Shown here: piece by piece, positions 7,946-14,425 of the stretch | How positions within the stretch are numbered: position 1 is the first letter of the stretch | Layout: each line of letters begins with the position of its first letter | Source: Planctomycetota bacterium | GTDB taxonomy: Bacteria; Planctomycetota; Phycisphaerae; WQYP01 | NCBI GenBank assembly: GCA_021799715.1 | Contig: JAJYZY010000007.1 | Location: 1 to 30,852 of the forward strand | Direction: 5' to 3' | DNA: 30,852 bases | Made by a program: the position numbers and the translations under genes | Notes under the pieces: generated by a model | The model's input: only the letters and a program-made list of their open reading frames with translations | The model's database searches: none | Told to the model about the DNA's origin: nothing

Positions 7946-8324
7946 GCGCCATATTCCGCCGCGTGCAATCAGTTTTGTCCGGGCCGATCAATTGCACGCC
8001 GACAATATATTCAGCAAGAAATGGCCCGCCCCAAAACCGGGAACGCCGGGCGGTTATGACCGCCGCCAGCGGCGTCCAGGGCCTGCCACCAGAGCGTGTG
8101 AATAACTCTCCCGAAAACAATCGCCCGTGCTGTGCATGGGCGTGGAACAGGTGGTGCACCCGCTCGCATGCGGGGCCGTCCGGCGGTATTCTATGCCGGT
8201 GCGCAAGAATAGGTGAATCGGGCTTGGGCGCACAGGTTCTCTGGAATGAAAGCATCCGCGCTACGGGACAACGTGCGGGTAGCTGGGCAAGGAAGTGGGC
8301 ACGAGCCAAAAGAAGGATTTCCTC
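7946..8324. other. Intergenic stretch without a convincing gene
   Basis: About 380 bases separate the dehydrogenase from the glycosyltransferase. Open frames on both strands are compositionally poor and carry no motif. A small hairpin, GGCGGT-TATG-ACCGCC, lies near 8051-8066 without a following T-run. I see no promoter worth naming. Confidence 0.45.
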
Positions 8325-9596
8325 TTGGTACGGCACAAACAACAAGAGCGTGCAATAAAAGAAAGCGATATTGCCGGCAAGCGGTTTGTCTACCGCGCCG
8401 CCGGCCGCCGTTCCATGCGCCTGACGCTTCGCACGGATCATCGCCTGGAGGGGGCACCATCCATCAACGAGCATAGTTGGGCGATTGAAGATGGAGCATT
8501 GGTACTGCGCCACCGTAACGGCCGGCCGACGGTTACGCTTGGCACCGCGGACGGCCGGCATTTCACTGGTACCGACCTCACCACCACTCCGCCCGAGACC
8601 GCCCGGTTGTCACCGGATTGGCGGGCCGCCTTCGGCCCGCTTAACGCGCTGGTGCGCGAAATGCGTTATGCCCTTCTGGCGGATAAGCGGCCGGCTCCGT
8701 TAATGCAGTCGCGGGCTACGCTGCTGGAAAACAGCGTGGCGGTTCGATTCGGCAGCAAAACCATTCGCTGGATTTTTCCGTTCTCCGGGGTCAAGCGTTT
8801 TATGCAAAAGGCTATATTGCCCTGGGCACTGCCGAATTGCGACGTGATCAACGAACCTGCTCCCGCGGATTTTGTCATCGGCGTATATCTCAATGATGTG
8901 ACAATCACCACAAGTTTTGCGGATTTTTCCGGACAAAAATTTCTGCTTTCCGTTGAGAAAGAGACACGCCACCCCAAAATACCGAATTGTCTTAGTTTTG
9001 TTCAGAACCCGCGGCCCGACGATGATGCCGCATACATTCGATATGCTCCGACCTTCTGCTGCTGGGTGCCTCCGCGGGACACCGCTAAGACGCGCAAATG
9101 CTCGGTGGTGGATAATGGACAATATGCCTGGCGCGTTGAAATGATCCGTGATCTGGCCGGGCAAATCGGCGACGTGGATGTTTTCGGCAAACTTTCAGGT
9201 CGTCCGCTGGGCGGTTATCACCGCAGCAGCAACAGCCGCTTCGGCAATGACAAATACCTGGGCATTGAAAATCATTGCTTTTATTTATCCCTGGAGCGGG
9301 CCGTCGCGGATGATTATATAACCGAAAAATTCACGGACGCCATTTTATGTAACGCCGTGCCCATTTATGACGGGGCGGGAAACATTGATGTCTATTGCCA
9401 CCCGGATGCGTATATTAAAGCTTCGGACGTTGGCAGCATTGACTGGAATCAGTGGAAAAAGGAATATGACCGGCGGCTGCCGGCCTTGCGAGCGCAAAAG
9501 GAATTGATACGCACACGATTAAATATTTTTTCCTATTTTCACCTTATTACCGAAGATTTGTCATTGCTTGACAAGCTCCGCCCCATCACCCGATAA
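8325..9596 (+). CDS. Glycosyltransferase family 10 (fucosyltransferase-like) with N-terminal beta-rich module
   Basis: The C-terminal half carries the GT10 signature: YLGIENHCFYLSLE, then DDYITEKFTDAILCNAVPIY, then a DAYI segment, as in alpha-1,3-fucosyltransferases, where this region binds the nucleotide sugar. The upstream part, with FGKLSGRPLGG and an acceptor-side region from about residue 110, fits a complete enzyme. Residues about 18-80 form a separate module (GKRFVYRAAGRRSMRL, HSWAIEDGALVLRHRNGRP) that looks like an all-beta barrel and is not part of GT10. A role in cell-surface glycan assembly is likely. The longest frame starts at GTG 8295, whose AAGGAA touches the codon. TTG 8325 has AAGGA 7 bases upstream and is preferred. 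No other glycan genes adjoin it, so the sugar donor and acceptor are unknown. Confidence 0.85.
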   Translation: MVRHKQQERAIKESDIAGKRFVYRAAGRRSMRLTLRTDHRLEGAPSINEHSWAIEDGALVLRHRNGRPTVTLGTADGRHFTGTDLTTTPPETARLSPDWRAAFGPLNALVREMRYALLADKRPAPLMQSRATLLENSVAVRFGSKTIRWIFPFSGVKRFMQKAILPWALPNCDVINEPAPADFVIGVYLNDVTITTSFADFSGQKFLLSVEKETRHPKIPNCLSFVQNPRPDDDAAYIRYAPTFCCWVPPRDTAKTRKCSVVDNGQYAWRVEMIRDLAGQIGDVDVFGKLSGRPLGGYHRSSNSRFGNDKYLGIENHCFYLSLERAVADDYITEKFTDAILCNAVPIYDGAGNIDVYCHPDAYIKASDVGSIDWNQWKKEYDRRLPALRAQKELIRTRLNIFSYFHLITEDLSLLDKLRPITR

Positions 9597-9640
9597 CGGC
9601 TCTTCAGGCATAACGCCATGCGATGCCCAAAGCTCTGCTG

Positions 9641-9699
9641 TGAACACCCGCGGCCGGTCGGCTGGGGTGGCAAAGGAAGACACCAAGTTAACCATGCAC
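9641..9699 (-). repeat. Dispersed repeat, copy B
   Basis: Read on the minus strand it starts GTGCATGGTTAACTTGGTG and contains CCACCCCAGCCGACCGGCCG. It matches copy C at roughly four positions in five, with small indels. It lies just downstream of the GT10 gene and before the palindrome cluster. Confidence 0.6.
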
Positions 9700-9809
9700 T
9701 GGTCCTACGGGAATCGGAGGCCCTTGCGTGTTCGTCTAAACAGATCACGCGGAAATGCGCACTGCGTGATTTGAATCACGTCCGCGCGTTTCCACTCGCG
9801 TATCGACGG

Positions 9810-9882
9810 CTAACGGCGTTTCTATCGGCGCGCCGATAGAAACGACCATATGTCGATAGAAGCGCCGATAGAACGTCGTTAG
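9810..9882. repeat. Nested palindromes built on CGATAGAA
   Basis: Positions 9817-9844 are a perfect 28-base palindrome with left arm CGTTTCTATCGGCG. A wider inverted repeat flanks it: 9810-9831 (CTAACGGCG start) against 9862-9882 (CGTCGTTAG end), matching except for one substitution and one indel. The word CGATAGAA occurs directly at 9834, 9854 and 9866, and inverted at 9820. No T-run follows, so it does not look like a terminator. A recombination site, protein-binding cluster or small mobile repeat are all possible. The rest of the 9597-10108 gap holds nothing else I can name. Confidence 0.75.
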
Positions 9883-10105
9883 GTACCGCAACTCTTTATT
9901 TTGCAGACACATAACGCGGCCAATGCACGAAGGAAACGATTTTTGGCGGCGACAGAAGCTGTTGCGACCCGTACCGACCGGAAGAGAATTGCCGGAATTA
10001 TCTGCGAAAGCCCACAGCAATAACCCGGCTAAAACACGATAGACAGAATGGCTGAAAAGTAATACGGACACACTTCCACCATTTCGCGCTTTAGTGCTAA
10101 ATAAG

Positions 10106-10124
10106 AGCCTACGGGGCGTAGGCT
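10106..10124 (-). terminator. Hairpin overlapping the stop codon of the nuclease gene, possible weak terminator
   Basis: AGCCTACG and CGTAGGCT pair perfectly around a 3-base loop. The stop codon TAG lies inside the hairpin, and the minus strand continues CTTATTT, which is only partly U-rich. It could terminate transcription or protect the mRNA 3' end. Confidence 0.4.
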
Positions 10125-10858
10125 ACCAGGTCGTTCTTAATATGCGGATTACGTGAAATTAACAGGCCGTGCAATTCTTTCCAATCATCTCCTGTGACAA
10201 GGTGGCCAATCCCCTGCATATTCGCGCGCACGAAACCAGCGTTCCGCAGCACGGCGTTGGACCGTAGTTCATTTAAACTAATTTCCGCAGTTAATGAACA
10301 TAACTTCTCAATATTTCGAAATATCGCTGTCCCTGGCCGCCAACTGGCATGTTGCCTGTTTAACTCGCCTTTAGCAACAAAGATGTCAGTAATACTTTTC
10401 ACCGGCATGCACCGGTACATCAACAGCAAGTCATCTTGCGAGCAATCTTTTCGTACTGCCCATGCAATTTCATGGTCCGACAACTTCGACTGTTCGCTCC
10501 GAACCGCGCCCTGAATCCATACGGCCTTCGGAGCATTGAAACGATTTCTTAGCTCCACAATTTTTACGTTGTCCGGAGCATCAGGCCAATCGTTTTGCCA
10601 ACATACGATGTAGTCGCACTTTGCGGGGTCGTGTCCATGCTGTCGAAAATTGCTTGCACGATACTCAAATTCTATCTTAACCTCGCCTTTCTCCCCATTT
10701 AATCGTTCAGCGATGCAATCGGGAAAACGCTCCTGCACACGCCTGACGCGGAAGCCCAAAAATTCGGCGTGGGCTGCGAACAGGAATAACACCCCCATCT
10801 CATTTCTGGGGAGAAAGTCTGCATTGAGTTTCGCGTGCTCTGTTCCCTGGCCCTGCAT
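10109..10858 (-). CDS. Predicted PD-(D/E)xK-like nuclease fused to an EVE/PUA-like domain (candidate modification-dependent restriction enzyme)
   Basis: The N-terminal half has a fold-type pattern of restriction-like nucleases. A helix (GVLFLFAAHAEFLGF) leads to ERFPDC with Asp47, then EVKIEFEYRASNF with Glu63 and Glu65, then CDYIVCWQNDW. The ExE replaces the usual ExK, so the nuclease call is by pattern, not by a perfect motif. The C-terminal half (about 125-249) begins with a beta-rich phrase, DDLLLMYRCMPVKSITDIF, and ends ISLNELRSNAVLRNAGFVR...GHLVTGDDWKELHGLL, which resembles EVE/PUA-superfamily domains that read modified bases. Such fusions occur in type IV-like restriction. I chose ATG 10858, with GGAG 10 bases upstream; the frame extends to 10924. 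The gene stands alone in a patch with repeats and a tRNA and looks horizontally acquired. Confidence 0.6.
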   Translation of the reverse strand: MQGQGTEHAKLNADFLPRNEMGVLFLFAAHAEFLGFRVRRVQERFPDCIAERLNGEKGEVKIEFEYRASNFRQHGHDPAKCDYIVCWQNDWPDAPDNVKIVELRNRFNAPKAVWIQGAVRSEQSKLSDHEIAWAVRKDCSQDDLLLMYRCMPVKSITDIFVAKGELNRQHASWRPGTAIFRNIEKLCSLTAEISLNELRSNAVLRNAGFVRANMQGIGHLVTGDDWKELHGLLISRNPHIKNDLVAYAP

Positions 10859-11043
10859 TTTCAATGTACTCCAAAGTCCTCGTAGTCCCCTTGTCGGTGC
10901 CGTGTACCGGGACGATAACAGCAATTGATCTGATCATACCAAGAAAGTCCGCTTTAGCACGCCCCAAAAAACCACAAACGCGAAATAAGCTTTTTTCCTG
11001 CGCGGTGCGCCGGTAGAATACTCCCAAAATAAAAGGAGAAGCC

Positions 11044-11286
11044 ATGTACAAAATCCAAATAAACCCAACCGCACTGCACCTCATCCAAAAACACCCGGTA
11101 GCAATCCCACTTTGCGTCGTGGCCAGTATCACATTGCTGCAATGGGTAATACGCTTGATAACGAGAGCCGGGCGCGAGGAGCACCAACAAACGACCATCA
11201 AACCCACACAAACCATAGATGGGCAACGCGCACACAACGCCCTCGAACACATGGTTCAAGACCAGAACACGCAGGACAAAAATTGA
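11044..11286 (+). CDS. Small single-pass membrane protein of unknown function
   Basis: The 80-residue protein begins MYKIQINPTALHLIQKHP, followed by one hydrophobic helix (about 19-39, VAIPLCVVASITLLQWVIRL) and a polar tail rich in Gln, Thr and His. The start is strongly supported: AAAAGGAGAAGCC precedes the ATG, with AGGAG at 6 bases, among the best ribosome binding sites in the window. A weak TAGAAT box at 11014-11019 could be its -10. I recognise no family. It is divergent from the predicted nuclease, with about 185 bases between starts, and lies just before tRNA-Gln. A toxin, holin-like or immunity role is conceivable but nothing in the sequence proves it. Confidence 0.6.
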   Translation: MYKIQINPTALHLIQKHPVAIPLCVVASITLLQWVIRLITRAGREEHQQTTIKPTQTIDGQRAHNALEHMVQDQNTQDKN

Positions 11287-11330
11287 AGGTGCCCAAGGGA
11301 ATCGGACCGGAATAATAAAATGCGGGAAAA

Positions 11331-11401
11331 CTGGGGGACTAGGATTCGAACCTAGACAAACAGAGTCAGAGTCTGCTGTGCTACCGTTACACCATCCCCC
11401 A
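11331..11401 (-). tRNA. tRNA-Gln (anticodon CTG)
   Basis: The minus strand folds as a 71-nt cloverleaf. Acceptor arms TGGGGGA and TCCCCCA pair fully, followed by discriminator G. The short D stem is GTG/CAC; the anticodon arm is GCAGA-CTCTGAC-TCTGT with anticodon CTG; the T arm is CTAGG-TTCGAAT-CCTAG. CCA is not encoded. It forms the right border of the accessory patch with the predicted nuclease. Confidence 0.93.
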
Positions 11402-11518
11402 AGGGATGATCACTATCCTAAACAATAGCCGGGATTCGGACAAGCGTTGCAACTTTGGCCCTGTGGCGAGCGGAGATTTGCCGCGTCGTGTTGTTTGGTG
11501 GCGGCCAGGGCACCGCCC

Positions 11519-11660: not shown

Positions 11661-13319
11661 TCAATATTTCCGCTTTTTAAGCATGGCCAACATGGACCCG
11701 GCCAGAAGAATCGCTGCGGCTGCGGGTTCGGGCACCGTAACCGGATCGACAAAGTTCCAGGCCAGGGCGTAGGTTTCAGTACTGGATATCATATTGCTGC
11801 CGCCGAGCATTTCCACGGCCAAGTCGTATTGGCCGGGGGCCAGAGTAGCCATCCCAAGAGTGGAATTAACGTTAATCTGTTGCAGATTATCCAGCATGCT
11901 GGTGCTGCTGGCGACTTCCTGCCCGGAGGAGTTCAGCAAAAACAGCAGCAGATGATTGATGCCGCTGGCCTGATAATCCTTATTCCATGTTAACGTGGCG
12001 GTTAAATCCCAACTGTTAACCGATGTTCCCGGCAGATTAAAGTCATAATTGTCAACTGCATTTTTGCTCGATGAAGCGGTTATGGACGCGAGATTCCATC
12101 CGGTTGTTGCCGCCACCGCCGGTCCGCTGAAACTGGCAGTTGGCGCGGTGGTCGTACTGGCCGATGAACCGCTGATGGCGGAACTGGTGCCGGCGGAGTA
12201 CGCATGTTCCCCGCCCACCAGATTTTCGTATGAGTTATAGACATTCACCATGCCGGCACCATAACGCGGATCCAGCGGAGTAATGGCGTTGACGGTGGTG
12301 GGGTTGTAAGTATAGGTGCCACTGTTGGCGGTGTATGAATTAGTCCAGCCTTGTATTTTGGTGGCCCCATTTAACAACAGCGCCTTAACAGTGCGCATAT
12401 CCGTGGCGGCGGAGGCAGTTCCCGCACCACCCATATTGTCATTGCCGGCCTGGATTAACAGAGCCGCCGAGCCTGATACCAGCGGCGCGGTATAACTGGT
12501 GTAACTGCCCGGGGCAATGAGATCCGGCGCGGATCGGCCATCCCACGTTGGCCCTACCCAGGTGGAAGGCGTGCCGCCGACGCCGGTATAGGCACCAACC
12601 GCGATGCCGTTATACATATCCGCCGGGGCATTGACATAACTTGGGGTCGGGGTGCTGGTGGTCTGGCCGTCGCCAATAGCGGTTACAAACAAGGTGTTGT
12701 ATTCCGCGGCGTAGTTGTCCCATATCTGATCCAGATACTGGCTGGTGGAGGAAGTCACGCCGGGATAAACAAAGCTCTGATTCACAACCGATGGCGCTTC
12801 GCCGATGGAGCTGTTAATCGGGGCTGTGCCCGCGTAAAGGGTATTGTAATAGTCATTCTCCGCATACACATAAACGTGTGACACGTCCGGAGCCACGCCC
12901 GCGCCGGCCCCGCCATAAAAAAGTGAAGCGACATATTCCGCGTGCCAGGACGCGTCAGCGCTGTTGTACGATCCGGACGAATTCCCGCTTGCATCGATAA
13001 AAGTGAATTGGGCGTTGGTACTGAGATTGGCCGGGTTGGGTTCAAAAGCGTTGAGCGTGGTGCTGCTGACCGAAGCCTCCACCTGCGCCACATTGACGCC
13101 CGTGCCGTTAAGCGCCGGTGCCACGCTTTGCAATTGCGTCAGGCCGATCTGATCGAAGGTGGTGGTGGCGTAAAGAGCATTGGTGGCGGCAAACGCCGCC
13201 GCCAACGCCACCGCCGCGCCGGCGCACCGCGCGGCATTGTTATAAGATGTAGACGTATTACTATCTACAAGCGTAATTGTTTTAGGACTCAACGACATCG
13301 GGGTGGGTTTGGTATTCAT
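11661..13319 (-). CDS. PEP-CTERM exported subtilase-like (S8) protein with an altered catalytic Asp
   Basis: An N-terminal signal segment (AAVALAAAFAATNALYA) precedes a subtilase-like fold. Each S8 block can be recognised: GVNVAQVEAS (the Asp block, with Glu81 instead of Asp), SWHAEYVASLFYG (His126), VVNQSF (oxyanion Asn180), TLFVTAIGDG, then APDLIAPGSYTSYTAPLVSG with Ser275. A C-terminal beta region follows, with SWDLTATLTWNKDYQ and LAPGQYDLAVEML. The protein ends VPEPAAAAILLAGSMLAMLK plus a basic tail, a PEP-CTERM sorting signal processed by an exosortase, which is not in this window. It is likely exported, then anchored or released at the cell surface. ATG 13319 has GGAG 7 bases upstream; the frame extends to 13355. 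Activity is uncertain because of the Glu substitution. Confidence 0.82.
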   Translation of the reverse strand: MNTKPTPMSLSPKTITLVDSNTSTSYNNAARCAGAAVALAAAFAATNALYATTTFDQIGLTQLQSVAPALNGTGVNVAQVEASVSSTTLNAFEPNPANLSTNAQFTFIDASGNSSGSYNSADASWHAEYVASLFYGGAGAGVAPDVSHVYVYAENDYYNTLYAGTAPINSSIGEAPSVVNQSFVYPGVTSSTSQYLDQIWDNYAAEYNTLFVTAIGDGQTTSTPTPSYVNAPADMYNGIAVGAYTGVGGTPSTWVGPTWDGRSAPDLIAPGSYTSYTAPLVSGSAALLIQAGNDNMGGAGTASAATDMRTVKALLLNGATKIQGWTNSYTANSGTYTYNPTTVNAITPLDPRYGAGMVNVYNSYENLVGGEHAYSAGTSSAISGSSASTTTAPTASFSGPAVAATTGWNLASITASSSKNAVDNYDFNLPGTSVNSWDLTATLTWNKDYQASGINHLLLFLLNSSGQEVASSTSMLDNLQQINVNSTLGMATLAPGQYDLAVEMLGGSNMISSTETYALAWNFVDPVTVPEPAAAAILLAGSMLAMLKKRKY

Positions 13320-13534
13320 CGGCAGGCTCCGCAACGGGCGCTTTGGCCCAAACAACTCTGGCGACCGAAGGCCCGGCCGCCGGCGAGTAACAACATGTCT
13401 TGCATCGGATCAACGGTGCCCGGCACGTAAGCAAAAAGCGTCAGGTTTTCCGGCGGAAAAGTTATCAGTCCCGGCGTGGTGAAATCAACGTTTTCCGGAG
13501 TTATTTGCGGACTCTGCGGGGGGGTATAAACGGG

Positions 13535-14425
13535 TCAATCCGGCATTGTTCCTGACGGCCGCCGGGCCAGGTTGAGAAAATCTTTAAGCAATCGGCTTTC
13601 AAATCTCCGGCGATGCCGACAGATTCCGATAATGCGCGCCGGTGCCGGGGCTGAAAGCTCCCGATAACAACATTTTCGGCCATCATCCGCGCGGGCGGCC
13701 ATTTGCGGAATCAGGGAAATTCCCATTCCCAGCCCGACCATCTCCTGCACAGTAAGCAATTGGGAACTCCGGCAGCGGACGAGCGGCAGGCAGTGTTTGT
13801 CGCGGCAAAAGTTCAGTACCTGTGATCCCAGGCAATGCACCGGATCAAGCAGCACAAAGGGTTGATCCTGTAAGTCCGCTATGTTGATGTTTTTGCGCCG
13901 CGCTAACGCATGGTTTTTCGGCATGGCCAATAACAGCGGCTCGGTGAAGATCGCTTCGCTTTCCAGCAGCGGCGCATCGATGGGCAGGGCCAAAATGGCC
14001 GCGTCTATTTCCCCTTCCAGACATGCCCGGACAAGATGCTCGGTAATATCCTCCATAATCTGAACCTGCGCGCCGGGCCGCAGACGGTTAAAACTTTTTA
14101 TTAACGGCGGCAGCACATAGGGGGCAATGGTGGGAATGGCGCCAATGTTCAGTGTGCCAAGCGCCCCATCATCAGCGGCGACGGCCTTGCGCGCGTCTTC
14201 GATGGCGGCGAGAACGGCGTTGGCTTTTTCCAGAAAGCGGCTGCCCGCATCGGTCATGAGCACTTTTTTCCCCGCACGGTCAAAAAGGGGTTGTCCCAGT
14301 TCGCGCTCCAGTTTTTTTATCTGCTGGCTTAAGGATGGCTGGGCCACCTGACAGTGCCTGGCCGCGCGGGTGAAATGACGGTACCGCACCACGGCAAGAA
14401 AATATTTTATTTGATGCAGCTCCAT
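13535..14425 (-). CDS. oxyR: OxyR-type LysR-family transcriptional regulator
   Basis: The first 60 residues are a LysR helix-turn-helix: MELHQIKYFLAVVRYRHFTR, then AQPSLSQQIKKLERELGQPL. The effector domain carries LLDPVHCLGSQVLNFC, where Cys198 and Cys207 match in spacing the peroxide-sensing Cys199 and Cys208 of Escherichia coli OxyR, followed by the OxyR-like segment GLGMGISLIPQMAA. The regulator is therefore predicted to form an intramolecular disulfide with H2O2 and activate antioxidant genes. AGGA lies 8 bases before the ATG. No catalase or peroxiredoxin gene is nearby, so the targets are elsewhere. A site ATAG-N7-CTAT overlaps the start codon and may allow autorepression. The C-terminal end is slightly extended and basic compared with the enterobacterial protein. 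Confidence 0.88.
   Translation of the reverse strand: MELHQIKYFLAVVRYRHFTRAARHCQVAQPSLSQQIKKLERELGQPLFDRAGKKVLMTDAGSRFLEKANAVLAAIEDARKAVAADDGALGTLNIGAIPTIAPYVLPPLIKSFNRLRPGAQVQIMEDITEHLVRACLEGEIDAAILALPIDAPLLESEAIFTEPLLLAMPKNHALARRKNINIADLQDQPFVLLDPVHCLGSQVLNFCRDKHCLPLVRCRSSQLLTVQEMVGLGMGISLIPQMAARADDGRKCCYRELSAPAPARIIGICRHRRRFESRLLKDFLNLARRPSGTMPD

Follow-up and report, generated by a model that had tools for sequence, protein, structure and literature searches.

The window analysed here, i.e. the whole stretch of 30,852 nucleotides from a Planctomycetota bacterium, encodes a 249-residue protein in which a modified-base reader, the fold of which is clear in the predicted structure, is joined to a half with a predicted nuclease fold, and which likely works like a modification-dependent restriction enzyme. 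We give a probability of roughly 0.6 to the reading that the protein is a modification-dependent endonuclease of a solitary, type IV-like kind, with an EVE domain that would read a modified base and an all-acidic nuclease half that would cut nearby, to antiviral effect. Fusions of EVE and PD(D/E)xK domains have already been reported as a class of putative type IV restriction enzymes (Bell, Wolf and Koonin 2020, PMC7641849), and we regard the window protein as a predicted type IV-like enzyme of this proposed class, with a nuclease half that is unnamed in the libraries searched.

Table 1 Features of the locus in the window (positions refer to the forward strand).
Feature	Coordinates	Strand	Remarks
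EVE/ExE-nuclease-like protein gene, 249 aa	10109..10858	-	from the list of open reading frames (ORFs); stop codon included; ATG at 10858
N-terminal domain, residues ~14-108	10535..10819	-	predicted restriction-nuclease-like core with E20, D47, E63, E65
C-terminal EVE (PUA-superfamily) domain, residues ~109-249	10112..10534	-	
Possible Shine-Dalgarno GGAG	10869..10872	-	10 nt before the ATG; read from the sequence
80-aa ORF with one hydrophobic stretch	11044-11286	+	good Shine-Dalgarno AGGAG at 11034-11038
tRNA-Gln	11330-11402	-	
Family-10 glycosyltransferase (GT10) gene	8295-9596	+	fucosyltransferase C-terminal domain, Pfam E 2.8e-13
Perfect 28-nt palindrome	9817-9844		arms 9817-9830 and 9831-9844
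Copy related to the palindrome, 21 nt, 81%	9853-9873		
Subtilase gene	11661-13355	-	Pfam E 1.9e-16
LysR-type gene	13535-14425	-	

The predicted reader-nuclease fusion

The preliminary description of this DNA had claimed a 249-residue ORF with the motifs FPDC, EFE and CDYIVCWQNDW; indeed, the minus-strand ORF has this length when read from its ATG, and all three motifs are present in the protein. An upstream TTG at 10924 would extend it to 271 residues, whereas the ATG has the GGAG ahead of it. A protein of a pooled set (P0001), encoded on a contig of 2492 bases, is identical to the window protein except for one residue at position 179, from which we conclude that the gene is no accident of this assembly.

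The AlphaFold model of the 249-residue protein (pLDDT 89.9, pTM 0.84) and structure comparison point to an EVE/PUA-like barrel in the C-terminal half and to a restriction-like core in the N-terminal half. This supports the reader-nuclease layout with an EVE/PUA-like C-terminal half that had been put forward from the sequence, and against which a model lacking either fold would have counted. Profile searches had been suggested as well: the Pfam EVE model PF01878 did not match the window protein at E 1, and 4 of the 18 full-length relatives matched it at E 0.5 or below, the best one at 7.8e-4. An EVE-domain sequence profile gave only weak matches to the PDB (E 0.1 to 0.38), in which other EVE chains were aligned.

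MspJI and other SRA-type modification-dependent restriction enzymes differ from the window protein in that their reader is an SRA domain instead of EVE and their lysine is canonical. The EVE-PD(D/E)XK class has the same two-part design of an EVE reader and a restriction-fold nuclease, the latter being predicted here, and, according to the legend of Fig. 7 of the respective study, the classes marked accordingly can carry the EVE domain on either side (PMC7641849); the class has (D/E)xK, whereas the window protein has ExE, and its family may or may not fall within this class. VcaM4I, an EVE-HNH modification-dependent endonuclease (PDB 6yex), carries an HNH nuclease and an N-terminal EVE domain, in contrast to the C-terminal one here (PMC7897488), and shares 6% sequence identity with the window protein; the hydrophobic pocket of its EVE domain, which takes up the flipped base, is formed by P24, W82 and Y130 (PMC7897488). 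Restriction by EVE-domain nucleases in Planctomycetota had no match in the open-access literature searched.

An all-acidic site in the nuclease-like half

In the predicted structure, the N-terminal domain follows the PD-(D/E)xK-type core order of helix, three strands, helix and strand, and the PD and (D/E)x acidic half-motifs (P46, D47 and E63) sit at strands 2 and 3. Searching about 5.8 billion proteins, we obtained a list of 49 homologues, including P0001, 18 of which (P0001-P0018) cover 83-99% of the query and 31 of which (P0019-P0049) cover 30-45%, i.e. the N-terminal part. E20, P46, D47, E63 and E65 occur without exception (49/49 proteins), and H76 and W87 each in 48/49; this search used no motif pattern, but favours proteins sharing exact five-residue words with the query. 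(The scan of genome contigs described below relied on patterns with an IEFE or NE.GVV motif and is thus unusable for counting ExE.) Since position 65 holds a lysine in none of the 49 proteins, we do not claim canonical PD-(D/E)xK membership for this domain.

The preliminary description had considered ExE in place of ExK as odd, which does not hold, since BamHI likewise has a glutamate for the catalytic lysine; according to the same source, the lysine is replaced by glutamine in BglII and NotI and by asparagine in MspI (PMC4081073). As BamHI is active, the presence of ExE does not by itself mean that activity is lost. BamHI was absent among the 50 structural matches listed, by which a likeness is not excluded. 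It presumably has further acidic site residues at comparable places. Unlike the proposed window enzyme, BamHI reads a fixed sequence.

The N-terminal half was not named by any Pfam model, either in the window protein or in the 49 proteins other than P0001, nor by any NCBIfam model in the window protein and the 31 N-domain-only proteins, and PADLOC, applied here to the window protein alone, gave no match. The nuclease half therefore looks like a member of a family that is undescribed in the searched databases, in line with the less-described family proposed before. Its structural matches are weak: with the N-domain, Foldseek returned no PDB or BFVD match at E 0.001 or better (best BFVD match: a VRR-NUC protein, 0.041), and the matches of its sequence profile to the PDB were chance-like (Vps26, E 0.34). 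Such weak matches, together with the lysine missing in 49/49 proteins, which would suggest a loss of catalysis, could also mean that the protein reads a base without cutting, the N-domain being a nuclease-derived DNA-binding or regulatory domain. We consider this unlikely, because the four invariant acidic positions argue for a kept metal site, a change from lysine to glutamate is known from an active enzyme (PMC4081073), and the N-domain is retained alongside partner domains of different kinds.

Partner domains of the N-terminal domain

Among the 31 N-domain-only proteins, 15 match HNH_repeat (PF18780, best 8e-22), one (P0038) has an EVE match ahead of the N-domain (PF01878, 2.9e-7), and MazE_antitoxin was matched weakly in four (best 0.0034). 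The scan of genome contigs turned up 150 encoding loci, and the 80 best ones were retained; a motif pattern located the N-domain in 64 of these 80 loci and missed it in 16. In 29 of the 64 loci, more than 80 extra residues follow the domain, and in another 29 they precede it; two loci have them on both sides and four on neither, a tally of lengths and not of identified domains. Judged from these sequences, partners on either side would suit a catalytic module that is combined with various heads. It is possible, and we put it forward tentatively, that the N-domain founds an undescribed ExE nuclease family, i.e. a plug-in cutter with interchangeable readers (arrays of HNH repeats, AbrB/MazE-like domains, and EVE before or after the cutter); certain members would be the EVE-nuclease accessory of HmaABC/DUF499 systems.

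HNH_repeat is named "homing endonuclease associated repeat" in Pfam, a term without a match in the open-access literature searched, and its presence in about half of the N-domain-only proteins would also suit a selfish or homing-type endonuclease that spreads itself by cutting DNA and does not protect its host. So would the patchy and mostly single-gene spread, the many relatives without a recognised defence neighbour, which form the majority, and the nuclease family COG4636, which has a displaced lysine and was proposed to be selfish (PMC551604). This explanation appears rather improbable to us, however, given that some copies lie in defence loci and that a modified-base reader, as present in the full-length members, should by reasoning be superfluous in a homing enzyme.

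Distribution and mobility

The titles of the best 80 of the 150 loci name Planctomycetota, Deltaproteobacteria, Myxococcales, Acidobacteria, Verrucomicrobia, Nitrospirae, Alphaproteobacteria, two archaea and others. Within the order of a related genome (G001), the N-domain was matched at E 0.001 in 4 of 28 genomes, compared with 26 of 28 for a flanking window protein. Across a sample of the phylum, 15 of 294 genomes, some of which may be incomplete, matched the full-length profile at E 1e-15, six of them over the whole length. The starred branches of a quick tree of 31 proteins force at least four changes for Planctomycetota, which suits horizontal spread and does not prove it. One Phycisphaerales genome (loci L001 and L037) has three N-domain matches on separate contigs.

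A reading as phage or plasmid cargo was discarded, since the respective collections are nearly empty of matches: none of 50,697 phage records matched, one of 72,556 plasmid records did so weakly (E 2e-3, 47% of the query), and the count for IMG/VR was 2 of 28 matching stretches. A full-length homologue with 37% identity (L081:8001-8708) lies on a putatively viral IMG/VR contig.

The locus in the window

The codon adaptation of the 249-residue protein gene (0.550) and of the small ORF (0.571) is the lowest of the 21 window genes, the others ranging from 0.618 to 0.720, with an index that was trained on these other 19 genes and favours them. The third-position GC of the 249-residue protein gene is likewise the lowest (0.53). 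The patch had been described as AT-rich, which is partly confirmed: GC is 0.472-0.508 in four 500-base windows (10000-11249) versus 0.553 in the whole window. Its description as repeat-rich finds weak support, as 9500-11500 holds one palindrome with its copy (Table 1), both located in the gap that separates the GT10 gene from the nuclease gene, and a few short pairs, but no tandem repeat; the 10-nt core of the palindrome is not repeated exactly anywhere else in the window.

The claimed tRNA-Gln was found, and Rfam at gathering thresholds yielded only two tRNAs in the window. A tRNA-borne island was considered and is not supported: the 3' end of the tRNA has no second copy within the window with up to three mismatches allowed.

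The left flank up to ~9597 (dehydrogenase and GT10) is kept in L097, L098 and L099, and in L101 up to the end of its contig; in L100, the dehydrogenase is present and GT10 is missing. L102, L104 and L105 retain the right flank from ~11660 (subtilase onwards), and L103 has the GT2 gene and its neighbour and no subtilase match. Where both flanks were found in a relative, they lie on different contigs, so that no clean empty site was obtained, and neither the 249-residue protein gene nor a tRNA was found in the flank stretches fetched from relatives. The GT10 gene lies beside the dehydrogenase gene in several related genomes, and the subtilase ends in a C-terminal tail resembling PEP-CTERM, with a match below the cut-off (E 0.42). 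Nine genomes gave no match to the LysR gene of the right flank at E 1e-60; in L102 and L104, no such gene is visible between subtilase and GT2, and in L105 a 29-residue LysR piece lies between them (L105:4757-4843), as if the gene had been lost.

A divergent small membrane protein had been proposed to form a pair with the nuclease gene. The 80-residue ORF and its Shine-Dalgarno sequence are there, but it may or may not be a real gene and its role as a partner was rejected, since about 5.8 billion proteins contain no relative other than the window's own copy, and in L002, a closest relative, no ORF of at least 60 residues is found in the 180 bases upstream of the homologue. The 148 bases upstream of the homologue in L001 are uninformative on this ORF.

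Defence context of the relatives

The match reaches the EVE half in 37 of the best 80 loci, 16 of which have more than 3 kb on both sides. Three of these 37 loci showed a defence context, the clearest being L033. Here, the order upstream is HmaA (E 3.4e-185), HmaB (2.6e-125), a 206-residue protein and HmaC (5.5e-118), and the homologue starts 12 bp after HmaC; three further picked genes follow and then Gabija GajA (2.3e-210) and GajB (1.1e-252). Two co-directional genes (219 and 240 aa; L033:10712-12098, plus strand) lie right after the homologue and before Gabija, the first without a PADLOC match. Stand-alone EVE proteins are described to occur with a helicase, a COG1743 methylase and a DUF499 system (BREX-related; PMC7641849), and this COG1743/DUF499 kind of system has been equated with Hma (PMC12839542). 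L033 fits this picture with an EVE-nuclease fusion in place of the stand-alone EVE protein; no HmaABC or DUF499 genes were seen beside the window gene.

In L023, a methylase and a type II restriction enzyme (2.2e-97) lie upstream, and a methylase ORF overlaps the end of the homologue gene; in L016 a methylase lies on the opposite strand, 1.0 kb off. L020 is a weaker candidate, where a nucleotidyltransferase, which matches solved nucleotidyltransferases and PADLOC PDC-S09 (5.7e-12), overlaps the start of the homologue gene; genes around it are what we take to be HEPN- and HicB-like, and no solved relatives of them were found. The N-domain protein of L048, which is not one of the 37 loci, has a methylase and a helicase-like protein next to it.

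Among 1006 neighbours of at least 80 residues in the 80 loci, no specific neighbour and no antitoxin-like gene recurred, and the families found in at least three loci were generic (regulators, kinases, ABC). This last result bears on an RNA-directed enzyme, the EVE domain of which would read modified RNA, e.g. tRNA, and the nuclease half of which would cut RNA as a toxin or stress effector. EVE and YTH folds read RNA too, many YTH-RNA structures appeared in the structural match lists of the protein and its EVE half, the L020 homologue adjoins the nucleotidyltransferase, and EVE proteins have been linked to tRNA and toxin-antitoxin modules (PMC7641849). Nevertheless, with no recurring antitoxin-like neighbour, we regard this as very improbable. 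Counting against it as well, restriction-fold nucleases act mostly on DNA.

For the near neighbours, the 145 nearest of 198 proteins (up to 3.5 kb away, at least 100 residues) were compared with all 120 far ones as a control. The 25 of 124 Pfam families listed for the near set include two N6/N4 methylases and two phage-integrase domains and are mostly ordinary. Defence-family models numbered 76 near (25 listed, PDC-S13 and PD-Lambda-3_B being among the matches of this family tally) and 46 far (25 listed, 20 of them from one L033 protein), with families counted instead of proteins, and at this level an enrichment of near (145) over far (120) neighbours is not established. A defence context is thus found in a minority of the relatives. 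The preliminary description had regarded homologues confined to housekeeping surroundings as counterevidence, which is not the picture seen in L033, L023 and L016.

Proposed mechanism and significance

In a modification-dependent endonuclease of this kind, the EVE half would bind DNA and hold a modified base, probably a pyrimidine, flipped out into its pocket, and the restriction-type N-terminal half would bind Mg2+ at E20, D47, E63 and E65 and cut the DNA near this base. The host would make no such modification, and therefore no partner methylase would be needed and the gene could move alone; its probable use would be against viruses that disguise their DNA. Taken as a whole, the preliminary description stands in its ORF and motifs, the EVE/PUA-type half, the reader-nuclease layout of a less-described family, the tRNA-Gln and, in part, the AT-rich patch; the repeat-rich patch is weak, the small membrane protein partner and the tRNA-borne island are not supported, and the type IV-like interpretation has its defence context in a minority of relatives.

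Compact modification-dependent enzymes encoded by one gene are of use in the mapping of modified bases and help to understand the bacterial response to phages with modified DNA. Should the N-domain indeed cut, a widespread module that is unnamed in the searched family libraries would become open to annotation in many phyla, and its site, which has no lysine, would allow a clean test of how restriction-fold nucleases function in the absence of this residue.
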